A DNA stretch of 64,000 bases, taken from Medicago truncatula. Lineage: Eukaryota > Streptophyta > Magnoliopsida > Fabales > Fabaceae. The stretch lies in NCBI RefSeq assembly GCF_003473485.1, contig NC_053042.1, positions 44,479,762 through 44,543,761 of the forward strand, given 5' to 3'. Shown here in pieces: positions 504 to 62,650 of this stretch (position 1 is its first letter; every line of letters begins with the position of its first letter). The translations under genes and the position numbers were made by a program. Below the pieces are notes generated by a model that searched no databases, was not told the origin of the DNA, and worked only from the letters and a program-made list of their open reading frames with translations.

Positions 504-2761
504 TTATGAGAGCTTCAACTTTGCCCTTACATGACCCTTAGAAATCTGGAATTGTTCAGTTATGCCTAAATGAGCCATCAAAAGCCAGACATGGGTAAGC
601 AACTCACCACCCTGGCTAAGTTGCCTAGCATGATGAAGCCCTCTACATTGACTTGCTGCATGACACAGCATCTCCACCCAAACATGACTTATCATTTCCC
701 ATTTCTGTTCTTTAGACCAATTCTCCTCTGTTTCTAAAGATTGCAATGATTTAGCAAGCCTACATGCATCAAACAGCACAGACTTGCTTCTGTCACCTTT
801 AACCTCTGATGGCGGAATAGATGTATTCACTCTAAGTATCATCTTGCAAACTTGACTTCTTTCTTTTATGTATTTTCTCTCTTTCAAAAGTTCACCCACC
901 TCCGCACATGTGTCTTCAAATCTGATCTGTCCTATTCCATTGGGCAACAAAAAAGGACATATAACAAGAAGATATATCATATAATCTGACAACAATTGAC
1001 TTGTATAGCGACTTTGGAGAGTAGCGGGGTTTAAGTTTTGAGGCTCATTATCATCGGAAGAATTACAAAGATCTGTAGCAATATGCCAAAGGAGAATGCT
1101 CTGGTCAAACTCTACCTCTCTAATGCTCCGGTTAATGTCTTGAACATGACAGTTCCATTTGTCAAGAACTTGATCACCCTTTTGAGAGCATAACTTTTTA
1201 CATGCTCTAACATCTGTTGCTTCCTTAGACTTCTCCATTAGTTGGTCAAAAATGAGTTTTCTCAATTCGGGACAGACCTCATGTGTTTTTTTGTAGTAAA
1301 ACTTCTCGAAGAAGTTATAGATGCGAAGGAATTTCTGGATTTCAATACATTTGACTGGCTCGTCTTTCAAGCAAAATCTAACGAGGTTGAATTGTGACAT
1401 AAGATTAGACCACGTGACAGTGTGTGAAAGTTTAAAAAAAATTGAAAGCATGAGATGAATTTGTAGAGAAGATGAATTCTCCGACTATTATGGTTGCTGA
1501 ACCAAAACATTGCCCGACTTGAAGAAAGTAAAACAATGACTGCATATATCTCCAAAATAATAGCCCCAGTAAAAAGCAAAATGGTGATAATGTGGTCATA
1601 ATTTAAGTGTAGGTCATGTTGGTTTACGTCTCCTTTATATATCAGAAAAGAAAAGCTAATCAGTGCAAAGAGCGTACAGAAAAAGCTCACAGATTTAAGG
1701 AAGATTCCGCGTTTGGAGTATGTTAACACTGCCTTTGTATATAGCATATCATACACCAATCCTAGCTCAACTGCAATTACTTCAAAAGCATGTTCCCAAT
1801 CCATGTTCTGAAAAAATAATTGGCTGGTTTTGTGGTCTTGAAAACTAAGGATGAGATCTGCAAATAGGCACTCAGGAATTTTGTAGAATTTTAATCCATC
1901 GTGTAAAGCTCGCGCATGTGGAATATTTGGATTTGGAATTTTGGTTTCCCCTTGATAATTATGTTCCAATAATGAGGGAGTAGTTTCATCAACTTCTTCT
2001 AATGTAACATGATATCCTTCATCTTTTTTAGCAGTGTAATCGTCCATGAACTTGGCATAATTTGGTCCTGGGTCCGGAGGAGGTAGAATGGATTCCCTGA
2101 ATCCTTTGCTGCTTCCAGACCACAAAGACCAACTCCTTTCACCATATTTGACTATTCCGGCCACAAAAATTGGAATGTTGACATAATTAAGGGGGCTTCC
2201 GTTCCATGACCGGTAAACAACATAAACTGCAACTGTTAGCTGGGAGAGTAACACAAGCATATGTCGATACCAAAGCTCATTGTCCTCAAGAGAGTAGGCG
2301 GTAATTGTGTCAGGACCACCAAGATGCACAAGGAGAAATGGTGCCCAAATGGCCATAATTACGAAGTTAGGGTCTGTCTTATGATCTTTGGAAAGAACTC
2401 CTAGAGCAAGGGTAGCAGTCCAATCAGCTGACAAATAGGTGAGCCAGTTCAACAATTGCAGCCATATATTAGCTATATACTTCCTTCTGTTACCCAAAAA
2501 GATGAGTACTATTTGCATGTAGAGACTAAGGGCAACCAGAATCCGAACTTCCAATACGTTCCACACTTTTGCAAGACTTGGAGTATTCTGAATCTGATTA
2601 TCTGTTACTGTTTCTCTTGAATATACAATCAAACTAGCAACACCTGAAGAAAACAAAAAACATATGTATGTCAATTGTTTGCTTAGAAAGGAAAGGAGGA
2701 CCAATATTGAAATGAATAAATAAATACTGAAACAAACATCTGTCTTACCAGCGAGTAACAT
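504..2761 (-). pseudogene. DUF4220/DUF594 membrane protein, copy 1, frameshifted
   Basis: Family of plant polytopic membrane proteins of unknown biochemical function. Exon 1 is tiny (2749-2761, MLLAG) with a GTAAG donor, and exon 2 starts at 2643 after TTCTTCAG. The reading frame then encodes the hydrophobic DUF4220 region, including 'LLVHLGGPDTITAYSLEDN' and 'ILPPPDPGPNYAKFMDDY'. Compared with the intact tandem copy at 9173-11447, one base is missing around an A8 run at 1434-1441. Translation leaves frame there and stops at 1367, giving about 429 residues. The C-terminal half, with the DUF594 signature 'LLWHIATDLC' and the end '...GHVRAKLKLS', continues in another frame at 504-1451. All membrane segments survive but the soluble DUF594 tail is lost. 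The defect could be a real recent mutation or a homopolymer sequencing error. Both halves otherwise remain very similar to copy 2, so decay is recent or apparent. Confidence 0.85.
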
Positions 2762-3340
2762 TGCTTGATTTTGTGCTTCTACTTGATTGCTATTTAGTTT
2801 TGAGCAATGCCAAAACTATATGATTAATTAGGAAATAGTGACATTAATTTAAAAGTGACTTGTTAATGCCTGACAGAGCAATACCTTCAGGCTTTGAAAG
2901 ATAGGATTGTTTTGACTATGTTACCCTACCCAAGGTGAACTTTATGCCTGCATCTTTTGTTATGTTCACAACAAAGAAGTAACATATCATATGTTAAAAG
3001 TAAAAAATCAATAATAAGAATTTAAAAGTCACTTTCTTTTATTTTGTAATACTTATCTGGTCTTTCCATAAAGTAAGTCAAATGCTTAGTGGAAAAAATA
3101 TGAATCACTTATCTGGTCTTTCCAGTAATATTCGTACGTTATTTAAAATTTTATATTTGTGTAAGGTGTTAAAACTAGTAATATGCAAACACCACCCACA
3201 AATATCTCCGTCCACTTATTCCCAAATCATGTCAATTGTCAGGTCATGCCATTAACAAAAAGTGCAGAAATTATAGTAGACGAAACAAAACGACGTTCAT
3301 ATGATTTGTAGACTGTCTCATTAGTAGGACAAACGTCTTC
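2762..3340. other. upstream region of DUF4220 copy 1
   Basis: Non-coding. The part near 3190-3335 (for example 'acaaatatctccgtccac' and 'gatttgtagactgtctcatt') resembles the upstream block of copy 2 at about 11670-11860, in rearranged order. This supports duplication of the promoter region along with the gene. Confidence 0.5.
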
Positions 3341-9172: not shown

Positions 9173-11447
9173 TTATGAGAGCTTTAACTTTGCCCTTACA
9201 TGACCTTTAGAAATCTGAAATTGTTCGGTTATACCTAAATGAGCCATCAAAAGCCAGACATGGGTAAGCAACTCACCACCTTGGGTGAGTTGCTTAGCAT
9301 GTTGAAGTCCTCTACACTGGCTTGCGGCATGACACAACATCTCCACCCAAACATGACTTATCATTTCCCATTTCCTTTCTTTCGACCAATTCTCCTCCGT
9401 TTCTAAAGACTGCAGTGATTTGGCAAGCCTACATGCATCAAACAACACAGATTTGCTTCTATCACCTTTAACCTCTGATGGTAGAATATCTGTATTCACT
9501 CTAAGTATCATCTTGCAAACTTGACTTCTCTCTTTTATGTATTTTCTCTCTTTCAAAAGTTCATCCACCTCTGCACACGTGTCTTCAAATCTGATCTGTC
9601 CTATTCCATTGGGCAGCAAAAAAGGGCATACAACAAGAAGATATATCATATAATCCGACAACAATTGGCTTTTTTCACGACTTTGAAGGGCAATGTGATT
9701 TATGTTTTGAGACTCATCATCATCTGAAGAATAACAAAGATCTGTAGCAATATGCCAAAGCAGAATACTCTGATCAAACTCTACCTCCTTAATGCTCTGG
9801 TTAATCTCACAAACATTATCACACCTCCATCTGTTAAGAACTCGATCACCCCTGTGAGCGCATAATGTTTTACATGCTTCAATATCTTCTGCTTCCTTAG
9901 ACTTATCCTTAAGCTGGTCAAAAATGAGTTCCTTCAATCCCTCAGAGACTTGTTTTGTTTTTTGGTAGTAAGACTTCTCGAAAAACTCATAGATGCGTAA
10001 GAGTTTCTGTAATTTGATACATTTTACGGGCTCATCTTTCAAGCAGAATCTTATGAGGTTGAATTGTGACATTTGATTAGACCACCTGATAGTGTGTGAG
10101 AGTTTGAAACAAATTTGACAAAACGAGATGAACCTGTAGAGAAGATCCACTCTCCGATTCGTATGCTTGCTCAGCCAATTCATTACCCAACTTGAAGAAA
10201 GTAAAACAATGACTGCATATATCTCAAGAAGAATAGCCCCGACGAAAAGCACAAAAGTGATAACCAGGTCATAATACCTGTGTTTGTATCCTTCATCATC
10301 AAGTTCATATACATTATGTTTATGTAGAAAACAAAATGCGATTAATGCAGAGAGTGTACAGAAAAAGCTCACAGATTTCAGGAAGATGCCGCGGTAGGAA
10401 TATGTTATCACTGCCTTTGTATATAAAATATCATATATTAATCCTAGCTCAACCTCAATTGCTTTAAAAGCATCTTTCCAGTTAGAATCTTGAAAAAAAT
10501 ATTGGCTGCTTTTGTGGTCTTGAAAACTGAAGATGAGATCTGCAAATAGGCACTCAGGAATGTTGTAGAATTTGAATCCATCACGTAAAGCTTGACAATC
10601 TGGAATTTTTGTATTTGGTATTTTGGTTCCCCCTTGAGAATTAGGATCCAATACTAAGGGAGTAGTTTCATTAATTTCATCTAAGGTAACATGATACCCT
10701 TCTTCTTTTTTAGCAGTGTAATCATCCATGAATTTAGCATAGTTTGGTCCTGGGTCTGGAGGAGGGAGAATTGATTCTCTGAATCCATCGCTGCTTCCGG
10801 ACCGCAGTGACCAAGTCCTCTCACCATATTTGATTATTCCTGCCATGACAATAGGAACGGTGACATACTTAAGGGGATTGGTGTTCCATGACCGATAAAC
10901 AACATAAACTGCAACTGCTAATTGGTAGAGTAATTCAAGCATATGTCGTGGCCACAGTTGGTTGTCTTCAAGAGAGTAGGCAGTGATTGTGTCAGGACCA
11001 CCAAGATGCACAAGGAGAAATGGTGCCCAGATGGCCATAATTACAAAGTTGGTGTCTGTCTTATGATCTTTAGTGTCTTTGGAAAGAATTCCCAGAGCAA
11101 CGGTAGCAACCCAATCAGCTGACAGATAAGTGAACCATATCAACAATTTTAGCCTTTTATCAACTATATGCTTCCTTCGGTTACCCAAAAAGATGAGTAC
11201 CATTTGTAAGAAGAGACTAACAGCTACCAAAATCCGAAGTTCCAATACATTCCACTCTTTTTCCAGACTTGGAGTATTGTGATTATCTGATTTTGATTCT
11301 CTTGAATATACCATCAAACTGAAAACAACTGAAAAAACATATCTATGTCAATGGTTTTCTTAGCCTTTTTAGAAAGGAAATCAGGACCACTGTTGAATTG
11401 AATAAATAAATACTGAAACAAACGTCCAACTTACCAGCGAGTAACAT
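9173..11447 (-). CDS. DUF4220/DUF594 polytopic membrane protein, copy 2
   Basis: Intact gene of two coding exons: 11435-11447 (13 nt, MLLA plus one base) and 9173-11328. The spliced product is about 722 residues. The start is chosen because the same mini-exon, with a GTAAG donor, precedes copy 1 and a third remnant; translation could instead begin at the internal Met near 11314. Hydrophobic segments lie at about 33-53, 65-86, 98-113, 135-150, 158-172, 319-338 and 357-381, consistent with a DUF4220 integral membrane region. Conserved words include 'LGGPDTITAYSLEDN' and 'ILPPPDPGPNYAKFMDDY'. The cytosolic-looking C-terminus holds 'LLWHIATDLC' and the DUF594 block around 660-710 (SHVWVEMLCHAASQCRG, THVWLLMAHLGI). 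The biochemical role of the family is unknown. The gene diverges from the NLR at 12810 across a 1.4-kb region that contains remnants of both promoters. Confidence 0.9.
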
Positions 11448-12809: not shown

Positions 12810-15800
12810 ATGGCCGACATTGGAATTTCATTAGCTTTATCAGCCGCCAACGTCGCAAACGGTCTATCCAAAATCCTGATTGAAGAGTATGCAGTGTTGG
12901 GTGGTGGGACAATTAGGCACGTAGAATGGATTGAAAGAGAGCTGAGGTCAATGCAGGGATTGTTGGAACAGGCCGGGCAGCGTGCGTACGGAGAACAAGA
13001 ACAAGAGTTTAATGAGTGGGAAGAGAAGTTGAAGGAAGTTGCTGGTGATGCAGAGGATGTGATAGAAACGTTTGTGATCAAATCGGTGAAAAGGAGGAGA
13101 TGGGGAGTTCTGTATTGGATTGACAAACACAAGGTTGGGAAAGAGTTGCAGAAGATCCGCAGGAGGATGAGAGACATCTCTCAGACTGGAATGAACTTGA
13201 ACACAAATGTCGTCAGTGTCTCTGTTGAAACTCCAGGAAGAGAAGCACCGTCATCAACAACTACCTCAGTTGTGGCCCCGGCAATGGAGAAGCTTGATCA
13301 CATTCTGAGTCAAACTACTATAGTTACGGGTGATGAGGTGGTCGAGATGGTGGAACAAGTAAAAGGCGAACTTGTTGAGCTGCAAAATATTGTGTATAGT
13401 TTGCGGTCAGCAAGTGAAAGAGAATATGTGTGGTTGGAAGAGGTGAAGGAACTTTGCAATTATACTGAAAGTGTTGCAGGTAATTTCATCCTTGTCAAGG
13501 AAAGACGGTCTAAAATGGGTATGCTTAAGAAGCTCCTTTATCTTTCAGCCGATTATGCTTCTGAAAATGAATTTAAAAAACAGATGAAGTATATTGGGAC
13601 TCGAATTGGAGATGCAGTTCACATAAGTTTGACTTACGAAGTTGGTGGACAGTTAGACATGGGAGTGGGATTCAAAAAAACATCCCCTGTACCAGACTTG
13701 TCAATAGAGAGCTGGATAATTCTCCACATCCTATTCCTTTTTGTTTGCCCTGTTATTGTTCTTTCCAAATTCTCAGAACCATCCTTGTTTTTATTGTTAG
13801 TAATCATCTCTCCCGCTTACAAAATTGTTCATGATCGAGGAAGAAAAACATCTAAATCCAGTATGGTGAAGAAGAAGAAGAAGAAGAAGAAGAAATGGAT
13901 GGGAAAGATAAGACGGTTTCTGCGCTTCTTTTTTTCCACTGTTATTTATATCATAATTTTCATCCTGTTTCAGTCTTACCCTGTCATGGGAACGTTCCTT
14001 TTCATCTTGAGTTTTTCACTTACTGAAGTTATTGCGTGGAGTATAAACAAGAATAAGAGATGGAAGAGAAGGGAAATAATAAGGCGGTTTACGCGCTTCT
14101 TGTTTTCCACTGTAATTTATTTACCGATATTTTTCTTGTTTAAGTTTTACCCGGTCCTGGCAATGATCCTTTTCATCTTGGGTTATTCACTTAATAAATT
14201 TATTGCGCGGAGTCTGAAGAAGAAGAAATGGAAGGTGAGGGAAAAAATAAGACAGTCTCCGCAACTTTTTTTTACCACTGTAAGTTATACAGCGATTTCC
14301 AGCCTGATTCTGTTTCACCCTGTCCTGGGAGTGTTCCTTTTCATATTGAGTAATTTACTTTATGAAGTTATTGTATGGACTGTGAATTTATGGAGGTCTA
14401 CAGCCAATAATTTGAAGTGTACGGAAAGATATTTAGCTGTAATGCGTGTGTTTTTGAATGATACAGCCGAAAGTGCGGAAGGCCTAAATACAAGGCAGAG
14501 AGCCTGGGTGGATCAACTGAGAGTCGTGTCTCAAAATGGTGAATTTTTTATTGATGGAGATGCAAAAGGCAAGGGTGGTTGTTTGAGCAGAATTAAGTTT
14601 GCCAAGGATATCAACTGTTTGTTGAAAGAGATTCTTGATATATCAGATAGGAAGGCCATTTATTGCATTGCAAATGTTCAAAGAAATCAACAAGACCTTG
14701 TACCTTTATTGGGCATACAAGAAAGAGATATTGATAATGAAATCATTGTTGAACACGCAGAAAATTCTAGTGCCATGCCAGCAGCAGCCGCCTCCTCCTC
14801 CTCCTCGTATCGGCCTGTCATGGGGCTCAAAGAGAAAGTCCAATCAATCAGAAGGGAAAAGGAATTGATGGATGCGCTGCTTCTGGATGCACAAGAGATG
14901 GGAGAATTGGAGGGAAGATCCAGAATCTGGGTGGAGCAACTGAGAGATATTTCCCTTGAAGCTCAATCTGTCATTAACAAATATGATGCCAAACTGAAGC
15001 ATAAGCCAAATGTCATCTACATTTTTAAGTACTGGACCCGATGTGTTCTTAATAAGAAGGTAGATGGTATCAAAAACAAAATTGAAGAAGCTTCTAGGAG
15101 AAGAAAAGCATATCGTTTGGTGCAAATTCAAAGCCGAGCCGTATCCATGTTTCAAATATTACGTGCAAGGAAGCAACTGCCTTTCGTTGCCAATGACTCC
15201 AGTGTGGTTGGATTTCACGATGACAGACAAGCTCTGATGGCTGAGTTACTGTCAGACGAGAAACGTCGCTGCATTACTTGGATTGTTGGAATCGAAGGCA
15301 CGGGTAAGACAGCACTAGCAAAGTTGATATTTGAAGATAACACTGTTGTAGATCATTTTCAGCATCGCGTATGGGTGTCACTGCCTTCAAATTGTACGAC
15401 AAACCAGTTTGTTGCAGAAATTGGCAAGGAAGCCGCCGAACAAATTACTGTAGAAGAAGAAGTCTTGTCAACTGATTACGTACTCACAACCTTGGCGCAT
15501 ACAAAGTACCTCGTAATTGTTGATGGCATAAAAGAAACTTCTCAAGTATACTTGGATACCTTGAACAGGGCCATACCCGATAGGTCAACGGGAAGCAGAG
15601 TTCTTTTTACAACTCGCAATGCAAATGTATCCCAACATGCAGCAGGTACGATCTTTGTTCACCCACTGCAGTTACTAGATGATGAAACTAGTTGGCTGTT
15701 GTTCACAAGACATTTGAAGGTGGACATTCACCCCGAGTCAGAAACAGAACTTATCAAGGTTGGAAAAGAAATTGTAATGAAATGTGGGGGGCTGCCATCA

Positions 15801-17477
15801 CAAATATTGAAAATGAGTGATTTTCTTTCGCATAAAGATGTTACACATGAGGAGTGGTCAAGAGTATTGCGGGGTGAGCAGCTCAATGAATATCAAATAC
15901 AAAGTTGGTCTGGAATGCTCGACACAATTAATAATAACTTACCTTCTTATCTGAGAAGATGTCTATTTTACTTTGTGATATTCCCTGCTGAATTTGGGAT
16001 CCCTGTCAGAAGGTTGGTTGTTTTGTGGGTTGCCGAGAGTCTGGTTCATCAGACAGAAGATGACGAAATGCCGCCAGAGCTAGTTGCAGAAAGGTACTTG
16101 ACAGAGTTGATAGATCGGAACATGGTCCAAGTTTCCAAGAGAAAGCGCAATGGAAAGGTGAAAACATGTCGTCTCCCTAGTGCTTTGCGACAACTCTGGT
16201 TGACAAAGGCTAATGAGTCTAGATTTCTACATGGCCGTCAATCTTCCACGGATTCGAATGAAGATCCAAAGAAGTCCATTATTCGCCGGGTTGCAGATCA
16301 TCTTGATAAAGATGATATCTGGAATGATCATATTCATGGCGACATTACTGATTCAACTTCCCTTAAAACCTACTACAAGGACGTTCTCTCCTTTCTTTCC
16401 TTTGATACTCAAGAGGGGAGTAAACCTGGGCATCAAGTAGGTAGCTTTCTCAAGGGATGTATTTCAAGTGATTGCTTCTTGCTCCTTCGTGTGCTTGATC
16501 TTGAACGCGTTTACAAGCCTAAGTTGCCTAATCGCATAGCAAGACTTTCACGGCTAAGGTATCTTGGCTTGAGATGGACTTACTTAGAGTCACTTCCATC
16601 ATCTATAAGCAAGTTGTTGAAGCTACAGACTCTTGATCTCAAACATACTTATATTCATACTCTACCTAGCTCAATATGGAAGATGGAACTCAGACACTTG
16701 TTCTTGAGCGAGACTTTCCGAAGCAGATTTCCACCTCAACCAAAAGGTAATTCTCTATCTGACCTCCAAACTTTGTGGGGACTGTTTGTAGATGAGAAGA
16801 CTCCAGTGAAGGATGGCTTGGACAGATTGGTCAATATCACAAAATTGGGATTAGCATGCCAATCAATGTCACTAAACCAAGAGGCAATGATAGCTCAACT
16901 TGACACGGTAGCAGACTGGATTACGAAACTAGAACACCTTCAATCGTTGAGACTGAAATCAAGAGATGAAGAAGGTCGACCTTGGAATTTACACTTGAAG
17001 TCCTTGGAAAATAACATAAATCTCACAGACATGTATTTGCTGGGAAGATTGAGCAGTTCATCTATTCTGTCTCAATTCCCTCTGAGCCTCGTTGAACTTA
17101 CCCTATCACATTCGGAACTAGAGGATGATCCCATGATACTTTTGAAAGATTTTCCACATCTTCGAACACTGTGTTTACTCGCAGAGTCATACGTGGGCAC
17201 AACTGTGGTTTGCGAATCTCAAAGCTTTCCTCAGCTTCATGTCTTAAAATTTTGGAAGCTGCAGCATTTGGAGGAAATTAAGATAGATCCAGGAGCACTC
17301 CCATGTCTAAGACAACTGGAAATCAGATCGTGTCCAAACATGCAAATGCTTCCTGATGGACTAAAGCATGTCAACACTCTGCTTGAATTGAAGTTAACAA
17401 ACATGCCAATGAAAATCAATGTTGAGGCGCATAACATCCCAACCAATTGTCAAGTCGTCCAAACTAAATTTCAGTAG
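12810..17477 (+). CDS. coiled-coil NLR with four CC-like blocks and a tandem membrane-hairpin region
   Basis: Intracellular immune-receptor family protein of 1555 residues in one uninterrupted exon. The start is the ATG of MADIGISLALSAAN; a further 3'-UTR intron is likely after the stop (donor near 17509, 'catggtgagt'). Order: Rx-N-like CC1 at about 1-128 with 'GDAEDVIETF'; CC2 at about 160-275; a hydrophobic hairpin at 301-337; a lysine run encoded by (GAA)n; three repeated hydrophobic hairpins at about 363-417, 418-473 and 474-528; CC3 at about 535-640; CC4 at about 668-775; NB-ARC at about 800-1130; LRRs from about 1215 to the end. NB-ARC motifs are P-loop GIEGTGKT (827-834), kinase-2 LVIVDGI (901-907, second Asp replaced by Gly), RNBS-B GSRVLFTTR, GLPL CGGLPSQIL (992-1000) and RNBS-D CLFYFVIFP. 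The MHD position reads LPS in 'TCRLPSALRQLW'. NLRs are usually 850-1100 residues. The length, the CC multiplication and the polytopic segment are all unusual. Membrane insertion is inferred from hydrophobicity. Confidence 0.92.
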   Translation: MADIGISLALSAANVANGLSKILIEEYAVLGGGTIRHVEWIERELRSMQGLLEQAGQRAYGEQEQEFNEWEEKLKEVAGDAEDVIETFVIKSVKRRRWGVLYWIDKHKVGKELQKIRRRMRDISQTGMNLNTNVVSVSVETPGREAPSSTTTSVVAPAMEKLDHILSQTTIVTGDEVVEMVEQVKGELVELQNIVYSLRSASEREYVWLEEVKELCNYTESVAGNFILVKERRSKMGMLKKLLYLSADYASENEFKKQMKYIGTRIGDAVHISLTYEVGGQLDMGVGFKKTSPVPDLSIESWIILHILFLFVCPVIVLSKFSEPSLFLLLVIISPAYKIVHDRGRKTSKSSMVKKKKKKKKKWMGKIRRFLRFFFSTVIYIIIFILFQSYPVMGTFLFILSFSLTEVIAWSINKNKRWKRREIIRRFTRFLFSTVIYLPIFFLFKFYPVLAMILFILGYSLNKFIARSLKKKKWKVREKIRQSPQLFFTTVSYTAISSLILFHPVLGVFLFILSNLLYEVIVWTVNLWRSTANNLKCTERYLAVMRVFLNDTAESAEGLNTRQRAWVDQLRVVSQNGEFFIDGDAKGKGGCLSRIKFAKDINCLLKEILDISDRKAIYCIANVQRNQQDLVPLLGIQERDIDNEIIVEHAENSSAMPAAAASSSSSYRPVMGLKEKVQSIRREKELMDALLLDAQEMGELEGRSRIWVEQLRDISLEAQSVINKYDAKLKHKPNVIYIFKYWTRCVLNKKVDGIKNKIEEASRRRKAYRLVQIQSRAVSMFQILRARKQLPFVANDSSVVGFHDDRQALMAELLSDEKRRCITWIVGIEGTGKTALAKLIFEDNTVVDHFQHRVWVSLPSNCTTNQFVAEIGKEAAEQITVEEEVLSTDYVLTTLAHTKYLVIVDGIKETSQVYLDTLNRAIPDRSTGSRVLFTTRNANVSQHAAGTIFVHPLQLLDDETSWLLFTRHLKVDIHPESETELIKVGKEIVMKCGGLPSQILKMSDFLSHKDVTHEEWSRVLRGEQLNEYQIQSWSGMLDTINNNLPSYLRRCLFYFVIFPAEFGIPVRRLVVLWVAESLVHQTEDDEMPPELVAERYLTELIDRNMVQVSKRKRNGKVKTCRLPSALRQLWLTKANESRFLHGRQSSTDSNEDPKKSIIRRVADHLDKDDIWNDHIHGDITDSTSLKTYYKDVLSFLSFDTQEGSKPGHQVGSFLKGCISSDCFLLLRVLDLERVYKPKLPNRIARLSRLRYLGLRWTYLESLPSSISKLLKLQTLDLKHTYIHTLPSSIWKMELRHLFLSETFRSRFPPQPKGNSLSDLQTLWGLFVDEKTPVKDGLDRLVNITKLGLACQSMSLNQEAMIAQLDTVADWITKLEHLQSLRLKSRDEEGRPWNLHLKSLENNINLTDMYLLGRLSSSSILSQFPLSLVELTLSHSELEDDPMILLKDFPHLRTLCLLAESYVGTTVVCESQSFPQLHVLKFWKLQHLEEIKIDPGALPCLRQLEIRSCPNMQMLPDGLKHVNTLLELKLTNMPMKINVEAHNIPTNCQVVQTKFQ
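13867..13894 (+). repeat. (GAA)n trinucleotide run coding for polylysine
   Basis: A run of AAG/GAA triplets inside the NLR reading frame gives about ten lysines just before the first hairpin repeat. It is in frame, and the positive charge next to a hydrophobic segment would favour a cytosolic side by the positive-inside rule. Confidence 0.85.
13896..14393 (+). repeat. three in-frame tandem repeats encoding membrane hairpins
   Basis: Three coding units of about 165-168 bp start at 13896, 14061 and 14229 inside the NLR. Each encodes a basic lead (W + K/R-rich), a first hydrophobic stretch ('FSTVIYIIIFILF', 'FSTVIYLPIFFLF', 'FTTVSYTAISSLI'), a turn with YPV/HPV, a second hydrophobic stretch containing 'LFILS/G', and an end near 'I(A/V)(W/R)(S/T)'. 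A more divergent hairpin precedes them at about 13704-13823. The repeats are diverged at DNA level but keep frame and hydrophobicity. Confidence 0.85.
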
Positions 17478-33790: not shown

Positions 33791-34261
33791 TCAATCAAGT
33801 GTATCAATCTTGCCATCAACCTCCTTCAACTTCTTATCAACACGCTTAGCAAGATCTTTCAGTTCTTCAGCAGTTAGGTCTTCATACAAATTGTTGTTTT
33901 TCAAGTTCCGTAGCATAGAAAGATTCAGCTCTTGCTCACGATTGTCATGCTTCAACTTTTTTAGTTTATCCCTTCCTTTAGCAATCATCTGCATAATGTA
34001 TCTTTCATGGCTCACATTCTTGTTTTCGTCTATCAAAGAATAACTTTGATACCTCTCAATTACCTTCTTGGCTTCTTCTGGATTCGGCCAAACCTCCATC
34101 TGAGAACCAAAAGGACTGGAAATTATAGCACAAGCCGGAATATCACAAAGTGTTGTCAGTTCAGTTACCTTCTTTATGAGACCCTTCTTTCTTTTATTGA
34201 AGCTTGCCTTCCTTGCCGCGTTATCAGAGATAAAGGCAAGTTTCACCTTCCTTCTCGTCAT
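33791..34261 (-). CDS. type I M-gamma MADS-box transcription factor, AGL80-like (copy 1)
   Basis: Single-exon nuclear DNA-binding protein of 156 residues. The MADS domain is at 1-60 (MTRRKVKLAFISDNAARK, then FNKRKKGLIKKVTELTTLCD and ACAIISSPFGSQMEVWP). A charged, probably helical region continues to the end (KIDTLD). The start is the ATG of MTRRKV, as in the second copy; the open frame continues upstream but that part is promoter. A TATA-like TATAAAA lies at 34340-34346 on the minus strand, about 80 bp upstream. M-gamma proteins such as AGL80 and PHERES act in the central cell and endosperm, so a reproductive role is likely by family. It is much shorter at the C-terminus than Arabidopsis AGL80. 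A closely related inverted copy lies at 62177-62650. Confidence 0.92.
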   Translation of the reverse strand: MTRRKVKLAFISDNAARKASFNKRKKGLIKKVTELTTLCDIPACAIISSPFGSQMEVWPNPEEAKKVIERYQSYSLIDENKNVSHERYIMQMIAKGRDKLKKLKHDNREQELNLSMLRNLKNNNLYEDLTAEELKDLAKRVDKKLKEVDGKIDTLD

Positions 34262-34445
34262 GGTTGCAAAACAACTGCAAAAAAAATTACAAGAAACTAG
34301 AAAGAAAAAAATGTGCGTTAATTTTCCGTGACTTACGGGTTTTATAACGATCCATATCACCTACCCCATTTTAAAATATGACAAGTCATCGTGTGAATGA
34401 TGTATATTTCCTTTGGTTTGAAATAGAATCATATATTATTTCCAT

Positions 34446-45954: not shown

Positions 45955-46079
45955 ACCACTCTTCTTTCTTTGCTACCTTAACCTTACATTACAATCACAA
46001 AACCCCTCTCTCTCTCTTTTTCTCTCTGAATAACTTTTAAGGTTAAGGTTCAATCTCTCTCTCTTAATCCAAATCAAAC

Positions 46080-47147
46080 ATGGAACCTGCCCCTGAACAA
46101 CCAGAACAACAAATCTCTTTAGCCTCTAGAGAAATCACCAATATCATCAAAGGCAAAAGAACCAAAAGGGTTAGGCCACAATCTCCTATACCTTTCTCCA
46201 TCACTGCTAATTCTTCAACTGGTGAAGGAGGAGGAGGAGGAGGAGAAAGAGAAGATTGCAACAATGTTGATGATGTTAACAATAATACCATCATTAACAC
46301 CAACAACAATAATACATCTCCAACAACTTCTTATGTTGAAGAAAAACAAGACAGTACTGTTGTTATTGATGAAGAATATGATATGGCAAATTGTTTGATT
46401 CTATTGGCACAAGGACAAGCAAAGGAATCATCAACAAAGAACACTGATGATTTAGATGGTGGAATGATGAACTACACAAAATATAGCAGTAGAAAATTCA
46501 TGGAAGCTGCTACTTTGGATTCTGGAAGAGCTGGTTTCTATGTTTATGAATGCAAAACATGCAACAGAACATTCCCTTCATTTCAAGCCCTTGGTGGCCA
46601 TAGAGCAAGTCACAAGAAACCAAAAGCTTTAGCAATTGCTCAAGAGAAAAAGCACTTATATGATGATGATCAAGAGTTTCAATTCAAACCCAATCATAAA
46701 TCAATTTCTCTTCAATTGAATAACAATGGTAAGGGAAATCTACATGGTGGAAGCAACAATAACAACAAGTCTAAGGTTCATGAGTGTTCCATTTGTGGTT
46801 CTGAATTCACATCTGGTCAAGCACTAGGTGGCCATATGAGGCGCCACCGTGCACCGGTGGGAACTTCTGCAGCCAACACCACACTCTCTTTGACAACAAT
46901 GGCTTTGGAACCTGATGAAGATCATCCTAGAAAGAAAAGGAATGTTTTGTCTTTGGATTTGGATCTCAACCTTCCTGCACCTGAAGATGATCATAGAGAA
47001 TCTAAGTTTGCCTTTGCTTCCAAGCAACATCAACAACAACAACAACAAAATGGCCAAAAACAACAACAGCAGCAGCAGCAACAACAACAAAAGCAACAAA
47101 CAAATCTTGTCTTCTCTGCACCAGCTTTGGTGGATTGTCATTACTGA
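46080..47147 (+). CDS. C2H2 zinc-finger transcriptional repressor, ZAT5-like
   Basis: Nuclear DNA-binding protein of 355 residues in one exon, of the plant C1-2i class with two QALGGH fingers. Features in order: basic nuclear-localisation-type B-box 'IIKGKRTKRVR' at 22-32; Asn/Gly-rich linker at 49-80; L-box 'EEYDMANCLILLAQG' at 98-112; finger 1 at 156-178 (YECKTC...QALGGHRASH); finger 2 at 234-256 (HECSIC...QALGGHMRRH); EAR/DLN repression motif 'LDLDLNLPAPED' at 292-303; Gln-rich tract at 317-340. The N-terminal KGKRTKR together with the L-box resembles Arabidopsis ZAT5. The class represses transcription in stress and hormone responses through EAR co-repressor recruitment; targets here are unknown. 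The polyQ tract, coded mainly by CAA/CAG, is a likely site of length variation. Confidence 0.93.
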   Translation: MEPAPEQPEQQISLASREITNIIKGKRTKRVRPQSPIPFSITANSSTGEGGGGGGEREDCNNVDDVNNNTIINTNNNNTSPTTSYVEEKQDSTVVIDEEYDMANCLILLAQGQAKESSTKNTDDLDGGMMNYTKYSSRKFMEAATLDSGRAGFYVYECKTCNRTFPSFQALGGHRASHKKPKALAIAQEKKHLYDDDQEFQFKPNHKSISLQLNNNGKGNLHGGSNNNNKSKVHECSICGSEFTSGQALGGHMRRHRAPVGTSAANTTLSLTTMALEPDEDHPRKKRNVLSLDLDLNLPAPEDDHRESKFAFASKQHQQQQQQNGQKQQQQQQQQQQKQQTNLVFSAPALVDCHY

Positions 47148-52617: not shown

Positions 52618-55381
52618 TCAATGGAAACCAATGCAGATGAAACACATGGCAGTGGTGATCATAGCAAGTAGAGACCTGTTGTTAAATATTTACAAAGAAA
52701 AACACAAAATGAATAACTCATATTAGCTTATAAGCATTATTTCAAATAAATTATGTCACAACTCAAAACAAGTTAATCATAATACCTTGTTGTATGTGGA
52801 TTGTATGCCTTGGATGATGGAACGTTTGGCGGTGGTGGGGGTGGAGGTGACAGTGATGGAGGAAGAGGAGGAGTAGGAGGTGGAGCTGAAGGTTGATACT
52901 TGCCTTTAATCATGTAAACAATTCAATGACATCAATCACATAACCCTAGTACGTAGCATCAATAAGATAAATTTTTCACATGAAGTATATAATAAGTAAC
53001 TAACCACATAAAAGTAGATTCTGTGGAGGAGGTTTCTCTTTGGCAGGGTTAGGATTAGGATCAAAAACTCTCACATAAAGCTCTTCACCTAAATACCAAC
53101 TTTTCAAATTCTGTGATCTCAAGTTCCACATTCCTGGATTGTCAGGATACACATAAACTGCACTCCATCCTCCAGGGAACACTTGCACAGTTGAGCGAAC
53201 GACGGGGTCAAATAGGTTATAACTTGACCTTGACTCTTCTTTCCATTCTCCTTCTCCATATCCAACAACAAAGAAACTATATCCATCCAAATGCCAAGAA
53301 TCAATGTTGGTTAAAGTGTTCTTAACCACTATCTCTGCCCACTCTTTATGCAATGCACTTGCTACAAAAACATCGCGAACCGCTTTAACATTTGAAGTGT
53401 TCTTGGAATAAGCATCAAGTTCATACACACCAGATCCATTGGAAAAGTGATCAGCTAACTTCAGTGGTGTTTTTGGTGTCGAGTATGACACATTGTTGAC
53501 AGTGTGGAAAGATACTTGATCAATCGTCGCAGTTGATGCTTCTAGAATAAAAGTCTGAGATATTGTTACATTTGTTACATTGAATGTTCCTTGTGGATTA
53601 GGCCTTGCAGCTCCTGCTGTTAGATTCCACCTTCAATTGAAATAGAACCATGATGTGAATATTTGTAATTTTCTATATATATGATTTGATTAATTGTTCA
53701 TAACTATGGAGAGGCATTGCTATTGCTAACATCTTAATATAATGACATTAGATAAACAAACAGAAATAGGATACCGGAGAACCTCTTCTTTTTTAGTATA
53801 CTAGGCCCGTTTGTATAAACAACTTAATTAAGCGCTTATAGCGGAGTAATTGTTTAATCATATAAGTCCTTTTTGTATAAGTTACTTTTATAACAAAAAG
53901 ATAAAATAAGTTGTTTCCATAAACCCTTCGATACAGTCCCGCAAGTGCTTATGTCAGTGTATAAATTTAAACAAGTCATTCCAAATAATATAGGCTCTTA
54001 GCACAATTATGTGACATGCAATTTACCTAATGGATTTAGCTTGGTTGATGGAGAATTCCAAATCAAATGGATCTGGACCAATTGGGAGAGGTCCATTAGC
54101 CTGTGTTGTGGAATTATCATAATGAAGCACAGCAATGCCAACAAGACTGTTGTTAAGACTCATTTTAGGAGAAGCCACTATGTAATAATCAGCAGGATTT
54201 TGATTTGCTGTGACAAGAACTGAATAGGATTGGCCTACATGAACATCAAGAGAATCCAAATCTATCTGATTCACATAAGATCCTTCAGTTTCAACCAAAA
54301 GTAATTTATGGTTTTGAATCCTGAAATTGAAGCTCCAAGCTGTCCCTACATTTGATATCCTAAGCAAATATGTTTGTCCTTTTGACATATTATCATAAAA
54401 GGAGTTAGTTATATTAATCCATGAAATGAAATTTTCATAAAAAGTTGAAGTCAGTAACACTTTTATTCACTTCTTCTTACCTTGTGTAACATTGAAGGTC
54501 TCATATGTTTTTGAAAAATTGTTCATATATGGACCTTTTCCGTTTATTAACATCCAACTTGGGGAAACAATATCCATAGTGTCCAACCTGTCCCTAACAT
54601 CCTAGTTCAAATTATATAAAAAACAGAATTAGCAAATCCAAAACAAATAACTTGTATGATAAGAAAGCATTAAACTAAACTACCATGTAGCTCCTATTGT
54701 ACCAGTCACCAATTAAAAGATCAAACTCCGCTTCCGGTTTTGGAAAAGGAACACTTATCACTGCGCGATTGTTAACTCGAATCGGACCAAACCCTCCACC
54801 GGCTTTAAGGAAATTGATGGAAGGGAAATAGAAGAATGTACCAATCTGGTCTTTAGTTTCAAAAACATAAGTCCAATTTGTTTGAGGTTGGATAGGGCAA
54901 TTTGTACCAGACACTCCATCTTGCCAAGAATTTTGCCTTTGTTGTATGCCATTCCTATGCATAACAAAACCATAATTCTGCATGTTTAGTTCAAGCACCA
55001 TTTCTAAATCTAAAACAAAAACATTGAAAACATAAAGCACCATGTACCATGTAAATAGCACAGGTTCAATATAACCATTGAAAACATTGACATGAATAAT
55101 ATCATTTGTTGTTGCATTTATAAGAGGTCCAGGAAACATGCCATTGATTGCTATAACCTTCAAATCAGATCAGCAACAAGATTAACCAACAATTTGTATG
55201 AAATGAATCATAAAAATTAAAAGATTAATAGATTAAAAGCAATAATCTCTACCAGTTTATTTTCAGACACTAGATCATCATTGAGGCCCAAGGAAACGTG
55301 CCACTCAAGGAATATATCAGCACTAGTAGCTGTTGTAGCAAAGAATACTAGAAGTACAATTGAACGTGTAATAAAATCCAT
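52618..55381 (-). CDS. SKU5-similar (SKS) monocopper-oxidase-like cupredoxin, probably GPI-anchored
   Basis: Secreted or cell-surface multicopper-oxidase-like protein linked by family to cell-wall expansion. Eight exons splice in frame into 594 residues: 55253-55381, 55048-55157, 54684-54954, 54481-54601, 54027-54378, 53005-53630, 52786-52903, 52618-52675. The signal peptide is at about 1-21. Cupredoxin 1 carries NGIQQRQNSWQDGVSGTNCP and GTFFYFPS. Cupredoxin 2 includes TYLLRISNVGTAWSFNFRIQ. Cupredoxin 3 includes SWHLDGYSFFVVG and NPGMWNLRSQNLKSWYLGEE. The His and Cys copper ligands of true ascorbate oxidases are absent (HLDG in place of HLHG, no HCH triad), as in SKU5. The tail has a Pro-rich stretch (about 539-567) and a C-terminal hydrophobic segment (about 577-594, LLAMITTAMCFICIGF), consistent with a GPI signal. 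The start is the ATG of MDFITRSIVL; open sequence upstream lacks another ATG. Intron 5 holds a degenerate MITE-like piece near 53805-53990. Confidence 0.93.
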
Positions 55382-62091: not shown

Positions 62092-62176
62092 CCGGACGGC
62101 ACGACATTGAACAAATAACGCACTTTTTTTCTTCTTCTCATTTCTCGTAACTTTCTTTGAAATTCTGTTGCAACCA

Positions 62177-62650
62177 ATGGCAAGAAGAAAGGTGAAGCTG
62201 GCCTTAATTCCCGATGACTCGGCAAGGAAGGCGAGCTACAACAAAAGAAAGAAGGGTCTCTTAAAGAAGGTAAGTGAACTCACCATTCTTTGTGATGTTC
62301 CAGCTTGTGCTATAATTTCCAGTCCTTTTGATTCTCGGACAGAGGTCTGGCCGCATCCAGAAGGAGCCAATAAGATAATTGAGAGGTTTCAAAATTTATC
62401 TGTGAAAGATGAAACTAGAAATGTGAGCCATGAAAGGTTTATCATGCAGACGATTGCCAAAGCCAGGGACAAACTAAGAAAGTTGAAATATGAGAATCAT
62501 GAGCAAGAGTGGGATCTTTTTATGCTCATGAAATTGCAAGCCAACAACAATATTCTTGATGGACTGACTACTGAAGAAGTGAAGGATCTTGGAAAGCGTG
62601 CTGAGAAGAAGTTGAAGGAGGTTGATGAGAAGATTGATACACTTGATTGA
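62177..62650 (+). CDS. type I M-gamma MADS-box transcription factor, AGL80-like (copy 2)
   Basis: Single-exon nuclear DNA-binding protein of 157 residues, closely similar along its whole length to the product of 33791-34261. The MADS domain is at 1-60 (MARRKVKLALIPDDSARK, YNKRKKGLLKKVSELTILCD, ACAIISSPFDSRTEVWP). The remaining part is charged and helical (HERFIMQTIAKARDKLRKLK) and ends KIDTLD like copy 1. Differences are spread over the protein rather than clustered, and both copies keep the frame, so both may function. By family (AGL80, PHERES) a role in central cell, endosperm or other reproductive tissue is likely. The start is the ATG of MARRKV; the sequence upstream is leader. Confidence 0.93.
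   Translation: MARRKVKLALIPDDSARKASYNKRKKGLLKKVSELTILCDVPACAIISSPFDSRTEVWPHPEGANKIIERFQNLSVKDETRNVSHERFIMQTIAKARDKLRKLKYENHEQEWDLFMLMKLQANNNILDGLTTEEVKDLGKRAEKKLKEVDEKIDTLD

Follow-up and report, generated by a model that had tools for sequence, protein, structure and literature searches.

The CC-NLR resistosomes described so far probably move to membranes once activated, and flax L6 and Arabidopsis RPP1 bear N-terminal anchors. RPS4/RRS1 and RGA4/RGA5 are divergently paired NLRs, arranged head-to-head, in which one member is switch-degenerate. Several Cucurbita NLRs with transmembrane signatures, mostly TNLs, are described in the available part of one study (PMC8463517), and RefPlantNLR lists non-canonical NLR domains, the word "transmembrane" being absent from its main text (PMC8559963). 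DUF4220/DUF594 genes have been encountered in resistance work: Bradi4g24336, a DUF4220 gene, is a Yrr1 candidate (PMC6161853), the rice Pi54 locus carries a duplicated DUF594 gene (PMC6281543), and work on resistance in wheat, rice and peanut mentions DUF594 genes, in passages that draw no link to the architecture described below (PMC6039772, PMC1261165, PMC9657016, PMC9845939).

We analysed a 64,000-nucleotide stretch of Medicago truncatula DNA (the window, in which all unprefixed positions are given) that contains an NLR frame, here called W, and searched its own genome (429.9 Mb, 42 contigs) for relatives; A and B denote the two cluster paralogues of W. W is a real CC-NLR variant common to a small lineage, and its sequence predicts that it is membrane-resident. 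Our preferred reading, to which we give a probability of about 0.4, is that it acts as a membrane-resident, switch-degenerate sensor or guard NLR working with its DUF4220 neighbour.

Reading frame and domain layout

The original observation of a single uninterrupted frame of 1555 codons plus stop was confirmed, positions 12810-17477 (+) being open throughout (Table 1). The domain order is CC1-CC2-hydrophobic region-CC3-CC4-NB-ARC-LRR, and Pfam matched NB-ARC (5.2e-35), WH_DRP (1.5e-12), LRR_14 (1.6e-32) and, in three stretches, Rx_N, which gives the CNL order of Rx_N-type CC, NB-ARC, winged helix and LRR. The two paralogues lie on C1 within 31 kb, A at 44.462-44.466 Mb (-) and B at 44.472-44.476 Mb (+). 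Both keep the order seen in W but have only about two hairpins, and this common order around a shorter hydrophobic region indicates that the architecture is not an accident of one frame. Queries of the genome with CC1-CC2 and with CC3-CC4 each returned the three cluster copies at the top, followed by ordinary NLR coiled coils at 1.2e-6 and 7e-5, respectively. The openness of the frame had also been taken as a sign that the product is maintained, which holds for W only, as A has one in-frame TAG, which is codon 882 when the frame is read as here, and B is frameshifted near its start.

Table 1. Positions of the NLR, its domains and the DUF4220/DUF594 genes in the window
Feature	Positions	Strand	Basis
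NLR frame, whole (1555 codons + stop)	12810..17477	+	Open frame, Pfam
CC1, full Rx_N block; EDVIE motif 13047-13073; sole block keeping the helix-1 position	12810..13214	+	Rx_N, MLA10 CC alignment
CC2, weakly Rx_N-like	13257..13685	+	Rx_N E 0.012; hhalign 9% vs CC1
Hydrophobic region, predicted four hairpins, residues 299-528, basic loops between	13704..14393	+	Insertion energies, K/R counts
Three direct repeats (13875-14045, 14046-14216, 14214-14384) encoding hairpins 2-4; absent from A and B	13875..14384	+	DNA repeat comparison
CC3, Rx_N-like without helix 1	14421..14759	+	Rx_N, profile-profile
CC4, Rx_N-like but lacking helix 1, contiguous with NB-ARC	14772..15209	+	Rx_N 1.6e-11; NRC2 alignment
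NB-ARC; intact P-loop GIEGTGKT 15288-15311; Walker B YLVIVDGI 15507-15530, second Asp replaced by Gly	15231..15911	+	Pfam, motif reading
Winged helix; MHD position LPS in CRLPSALR (16167-16190)	15978..16190	+	Pfam, motif reading
LRR region (LRR_14), residues 1218-1534	16461..17411	+	Pfam
DUF4220/DUF594 gene for a polytopic membrane protein, oriented divergently from the NLR, ~1.5 kb between frames	9173..11347	-	Pfam, intact frame
Second DUF4220/DUF594 gene, two overlapping frames (frameshift)	504..2815	-	Pfam, frames

Four Rx-N-like coiled-coil blocks had been proposed. When the blocks were cut out of W, their Rx_N E-values were 2e-15 (CC1), 1.6e-11 (CC4), 0.0051 (CC3) and 0.012 (CC2); in paralogue A, CC3 matched clearly (1.5e-7) and CC2 reached 0.073. 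Profile-profile comparison with hhalign, using profiles of three rows each, gave 95.8% for CC3-CC4, 52% for CC1-CC4, 12% for CC2-CC3, 9% for CC1-CC2, 5% for CC1-CC3 and 4% for CC2-CC4. The proposal therefore stands for CC1, for CC4 and, through CC4, for CC3, and is weak for CC2. In a PDB profile search, the MLA10 CC aligned with W residues 15-90, and the N-terminus of CC1 reads MADIGISLAL. The best PDB match was NRC2 (8xuq; query 671-1542, E 6.5e-55), and because this alignment starts at query 671 with NRC2 residue 25, helix 1 is apparently missing from the NB-ARC-adjacent CC. The Rx_N match begins at profile position 33 in CC3 and 15 in CC4, and a MADA-type helix 1, as expected of a ZAR1-like executor, was not found in CC4 by the Rx_N or NRC2 alignments.

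The hydrophobic region is T-rich, with a GC content of 0.36 versus 0.38-0.46 in the other blocks, as might be expected if it were intronic, or if CC1-CC2 and CC3-LRR belonged to separate mRNAs of a spliced or split gene. However, no stop was found from CC1 to NB-ARC in any of the three paralogues, with 3.8-5.1 expected per pair for the hydrophobic part (P 0.005-0.024), and in the protein-level alignment its length differences are whole codons. In addition, only two GTRAG donor-like sites occur in 13501-14700, both within the last repeat, and GC at codon position 3 (0.46) exceeds that at positions 1 and 2, so that we consider a spliced or split gene highly improbable.

Hydrophobic hairpins and selection among the cluster copies

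The four hydrophobic hairpins anticipated between CC2 and CC3 were borne out as eight hydrophobic arms. Their best apparent insertion energies were, in order, -1.3, 1.5, -2.0, 0.5, -1.35, -0.06, 1.6 and 0.9 kcal/mol, on an approximate scale (glycophorin A control, -1.65) that over-calls, giving 0.45 kcal/mol for the winged-helix stretch 1047-1069, surely no membrane helix, so that scores near 0-1 prove little alone. The three inter-hairpin loops hold 14, 6 and 8 K/R residues and the four turns, as cut here, hold none. On this approximate scale, the hydrophobicity and loop charges of W fit transmembrane segments with positive-inside loops; with an even number of crossings and the basic loops on one side, CC1-CC2 would face the same side as CC3-LRR, presumably the cytosol. 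Insertion through the hairpins, with both protein ends cytosolic, is thus predicted from the sequence. Permanent membrane insertion, as originally proposed, holds as a prediction, supported by the hydrophobic arms, the one-sided basic loops, the domain order in all three cluster copies and a predicted anchor in two distant clade members (see below). In B, the hydrophobic segments are weaker and fewer in number.

Hairpins 2-4 of W are direct DNA repeats spaced 171 and 168 nt, forming a 57-aa tandem unit that was found only in W among the cluster copies, with 24-31 of 57 residues identical between units. An AAG run at 13867-13895, likely a length-variable microsatellite, encodes nine lysines directly before these repeats. 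Pfam yielded no known membrane family for the hairpins (best E 2.2 for W and 0.2 for B), and the match of the A region to DUF2391 (0.0013) was below the family cut-off (18.6 vs 22 bits). A PDB profile search with the hairpin region gave no matches at E up to 5, and a search of the own genome gave nine rows at E up to 10, the region itself among them. The paralogues A and B scored no better than 0.26 and 1.1 there, and of the remaining sites the best, which contains a stop, reached 0.059. The region is therefore unrecognisable by sequence beyond the cluster, and paralogy of the hairpins rests on position and flanks. Derivation of the hairpins from the DUF4220 neighbour was also considered and rejected (best blastp E 0.69).

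In pairwise comparisons of W, A and B, dN/dS was lowest in CC1 (0.19-0.27), the winged helix (0.16-0.38) and the LRR (0.24-0.30); it was 0.66-1.68 in CC2, and near neutral in the hydrophobic region (W-A 0.70, W-B 0.82, A-B 0.96). In many NLRs, the LRR is the variable part. Since CC1, the winged helix and the LRR of this cluster are conserved while CC2 and the hairpins change, we infer that the CC2-hairpin region may be the variable surface. In the hydrophobic region (127-135 aligned codons), the fraction of strictly hydrophobic residues retained was 0.75-0.83, versus 0.62-0.71 in a neutral simulation. Retention exceeded the neutral level in five of six directed comparisons (each with P at most 0.032), the exception being A to B (P 0.24). 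The six are not mutually independent, and in only two of them was mean hydropathy conserved more than expected by chance. Among the three repeats of W, hydrophobic retention was no better than neutral (P 0.30-0.67).

A five-member clade with altered switch motifs

The next relatives after A and B were located at C8:7.28 Mb (1167 aa, open; hereafter C8) and at C1:6.88 Mb, where the frame breaks. The five members form one NB-ARC clade (bootstrap 96-100), with support pairs of 99/98, 100/99 and 96/94 in trees of 13, 10 and 11 rows, whose rows are a subset of this genome's NLRs and which came with a long-branch warning. Anchors are predicted in W, A, B, C8 and C1:6.88 Mb. In C8 and C1:6.88 Mb, the anchor is a predicted N-terminal transmembrane helix (-1.51 and -1.83, the latter in a broken frame) that directly precedes VEWIERK and VNWIKRK, respectively, a stretch aligning with CC1; it thus occupies the helix-1 position. 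At the same cut-off, none of six non-clade NLR N-termini (L008, L030, L031, L037, L039 and L040) had such a segment, that of L031 having been read from an inner Met and possibly being without helix 1. L005 is a clade member whose open frame shows no segment, since the anchor sits in another frame.

Three of the five members are broken (A, B and C1:6.88 Mb), and this, together with the neutral-like change among the repeats and the dN/dS of 0.70-0.96 in the hydrophobic region, would be expected of an old extended-CC NLR under relaxed constraint, a relic with little present function whose hairpins drift or expand by slippage or unequal exchange. However, W and C8 are open over their full length, dN/dS in the LRR, winged helix and CC1 is about 0.16-0.38, and hydrophobic residues persist between paralogues more often than the simulation predicts. 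A relic is therefore, in our view, rather unlikely.

The NB-ARC had been described as normal, a description that does not fit two of its switch motifs. The P-loop is intact in W, as in CNLs, and across the clade. The second Walker B Asp, in contrast, is replaced by Gly or Asn in all five members (VDG in three, including W, and LDN in two), against DD in all 10 other NLRs read, so that W lacks the two Asp residues of CNLs. The MHD motif of CNLs is likewise not present in W: the site reads LPS in W, C8 and C1:6.88 Mb and LPY in A and B, while HD is kept in all five non-clade NLRs that reach it (L008, L031, L039, L040 and L042). Changes of this kind in MHD and Walker B impair the nucleotide switch of NLRs. 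The loss of MHD lowers the case for canonical CNL switching by W, not the case for CNL descent.

These replacements, and the absence of helix 1 from the NB-ARC-adjacent CC, tell against the earlier idea of a receptor that acts without relocation as its own executor, and a sensor or scaffold fits them better. An autonomous executor anchored in the membrane might still oligomerise there on activation, with the CC1 helix forming the pore; CC1 is a full Rx_N block (2e-15) under purifying selection, it begins with MADIGISLAL, and W keeps its P-loop. However, CC1 lies some 690 residues from the NB-ARC, with the hairpins in between, and its helix matches the MADA consensus at the first residues only. 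Given also the missing helix 1 of CC4 and the replaced MHD and Walker B residues, we regard such an executor as quite unlikely.

DUF4220 neighbours and comparison with known systems

A PF13968 search of the own genome found five DUF4220 places (five candidates, all scored), four of them near clade NLRs: two in the window and one each next to the NLRs of C8 and C1:6.88 Mb. Around the fifth, on C2, the 17 kb covered matched neither the W nor the C8 protein. At all three clade loci, the DUF4220 gene (-) and the NLR (+) are divergent, their frames lying about 1.5, 2.2 and 12 kb apart, and the divergent linkage is thus conserved within this genome. The second cluster DUF4220 gene (504-2815) lies 3' of paralogue B and is convergent rather than divergent, with a further DUF fragment alongside; dN/dS between DUF1 and DUF2 was 0.43 and 0.27. 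In the C8 DUF4220 frame, stops fall across 24 nt at a site that is likewise interrupted in the C1:6.86 Mb copy, which has one further break, and this common interruption (L015, L049, L050) is perhaps an intron without counterpart in the window copy. With these interruptions elsewhere, the pair at 9-17 kb of the window is the one with both frames fully open. The NB-ARC (36% between W and C8) and DUF4220 (39-40%) have diverged similarly, which indicates that the linkage is old. The three loci may descend from one ancestral linked pair, so that linkage alone is no proof of joint function, although it suggests that the NLR and the adjoining DUF4220 protein may work together.

Other features were recorded in and around these loci. 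Shortly upstream of the window, at L014:3087-3299, is a further fragment of a DUF4220 C-terminus, and a frame beside the broken C1:6.88 Mb NLR (L016:6104-6940, +) resembles copia gag by eye. The window also holds two similar MADS-box (SRF-TF) genes at 33794-34360 (-) and 62111-62650 (+), a C2H2 zinc-finger gene containing runs rich in Asn and Gln at 46068-47147 (+), and a multi-exon multicopper-oxidase gene at 53000-55169 (-; Pfam on the 53003-53632 piece).

Under our preferred reading of a membrane-resident sensor or guard, this genome would contain a small five-member NLR lineage that is membrane-anchored from the start, by the hairpins between CC2 and CC3 in the cluster copies and by a predicted transmembrane helix replacing CC helix 1 in the two distant members. 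With a P-loop but neither the MHD His-Asp nor the second Walker B Asp, and with an adjacent CC lacking helix 1, W would most likely be no cycling, oligomerising executor of the ZAR1 type but a membrane-tethered sensor or guard. The CC2-hairpin region would provide a fast-changing membrane-level surface that may serve in sensing, and the C-terminal half would be a conserved, switch-degenerate body in need of a partner, for which the DUF4220 protein is the simplest candidate; the signal would pass to another NLR or to the DUF4220/DUF594 partner. More broadly, we tentatively propose a distinct, constitutively membrane-resident NLR lineage that acquired its anchors by two routes (conversion of helix 1 to a transmembrane anchor, and internal hairpins multiplied by tandem duplication), lost the switch residues of MHD and Walker B, and has an old divergent pairing with DUF4220/DUF594 as obligate partner, guardee or output channel. 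If true, a lineage pre-fixed in the membrane, whose switch is degenerate and whose neighbour is a membrane protein, would represent a different layout for intracellular immunity, and would offer the first testable role for the large DUF4220/DUF594 family, which recurs at resistance loci as a name without function.

In titles, abstract openings and available passages of the open-licence literature, we recognised no description of a W-like architecture or of NLR-DUF4220 pairing. W resembles NRC/RPP13/ZAR1-type CC-NLRs (NRC2 8xuq; RPP13-like protein 4, 6j5t) in the alignment of its CC4-NB-ARC-winged helix-LRR part, but has CC1-CC2-hairpins-CC3 added in front, lacks helix 1 in the adjacent CC and has other residues in place of MHD and of the second Asp in Walker B. 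It has in common with SD-CNLs such as Sw-5b (R1/Solanaceae domain, PF12061) a long N-terminal extension before CC-NB-ARC, as far as the consulted portion describes them (PMC8559963); the extension of W, however, consists of Rx_N-like blocks and hairpins, and PF12061 was not matched at E up to 1 (Pfam, 13 families listed). A membrane anchor is likewise predicted in the Cucurbita NLRs (PMC8463517, available part), L6 and RPP1, whereas W is of the CC type with an internal polytopic region, N-terminal anchors being confined to the two distant clade members. The Yrr1 and Pi54 loci also place DUF4220/DUF594 genes at resistance loci, and their available descriptions state no divergent pairing with a membrane NLR (PMC6161853, PMC6281543). 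Among the new leads, the divergent DUF4220 pair combined with the lost switch motifs is the strongest: as at RPS4/RRS1 and RGA4/RGA5, a head-to-head pair includes a switch-degenerate member, but the partner at the W locus is a DUF4220/DUF594 membrane protein rather than an NLR.
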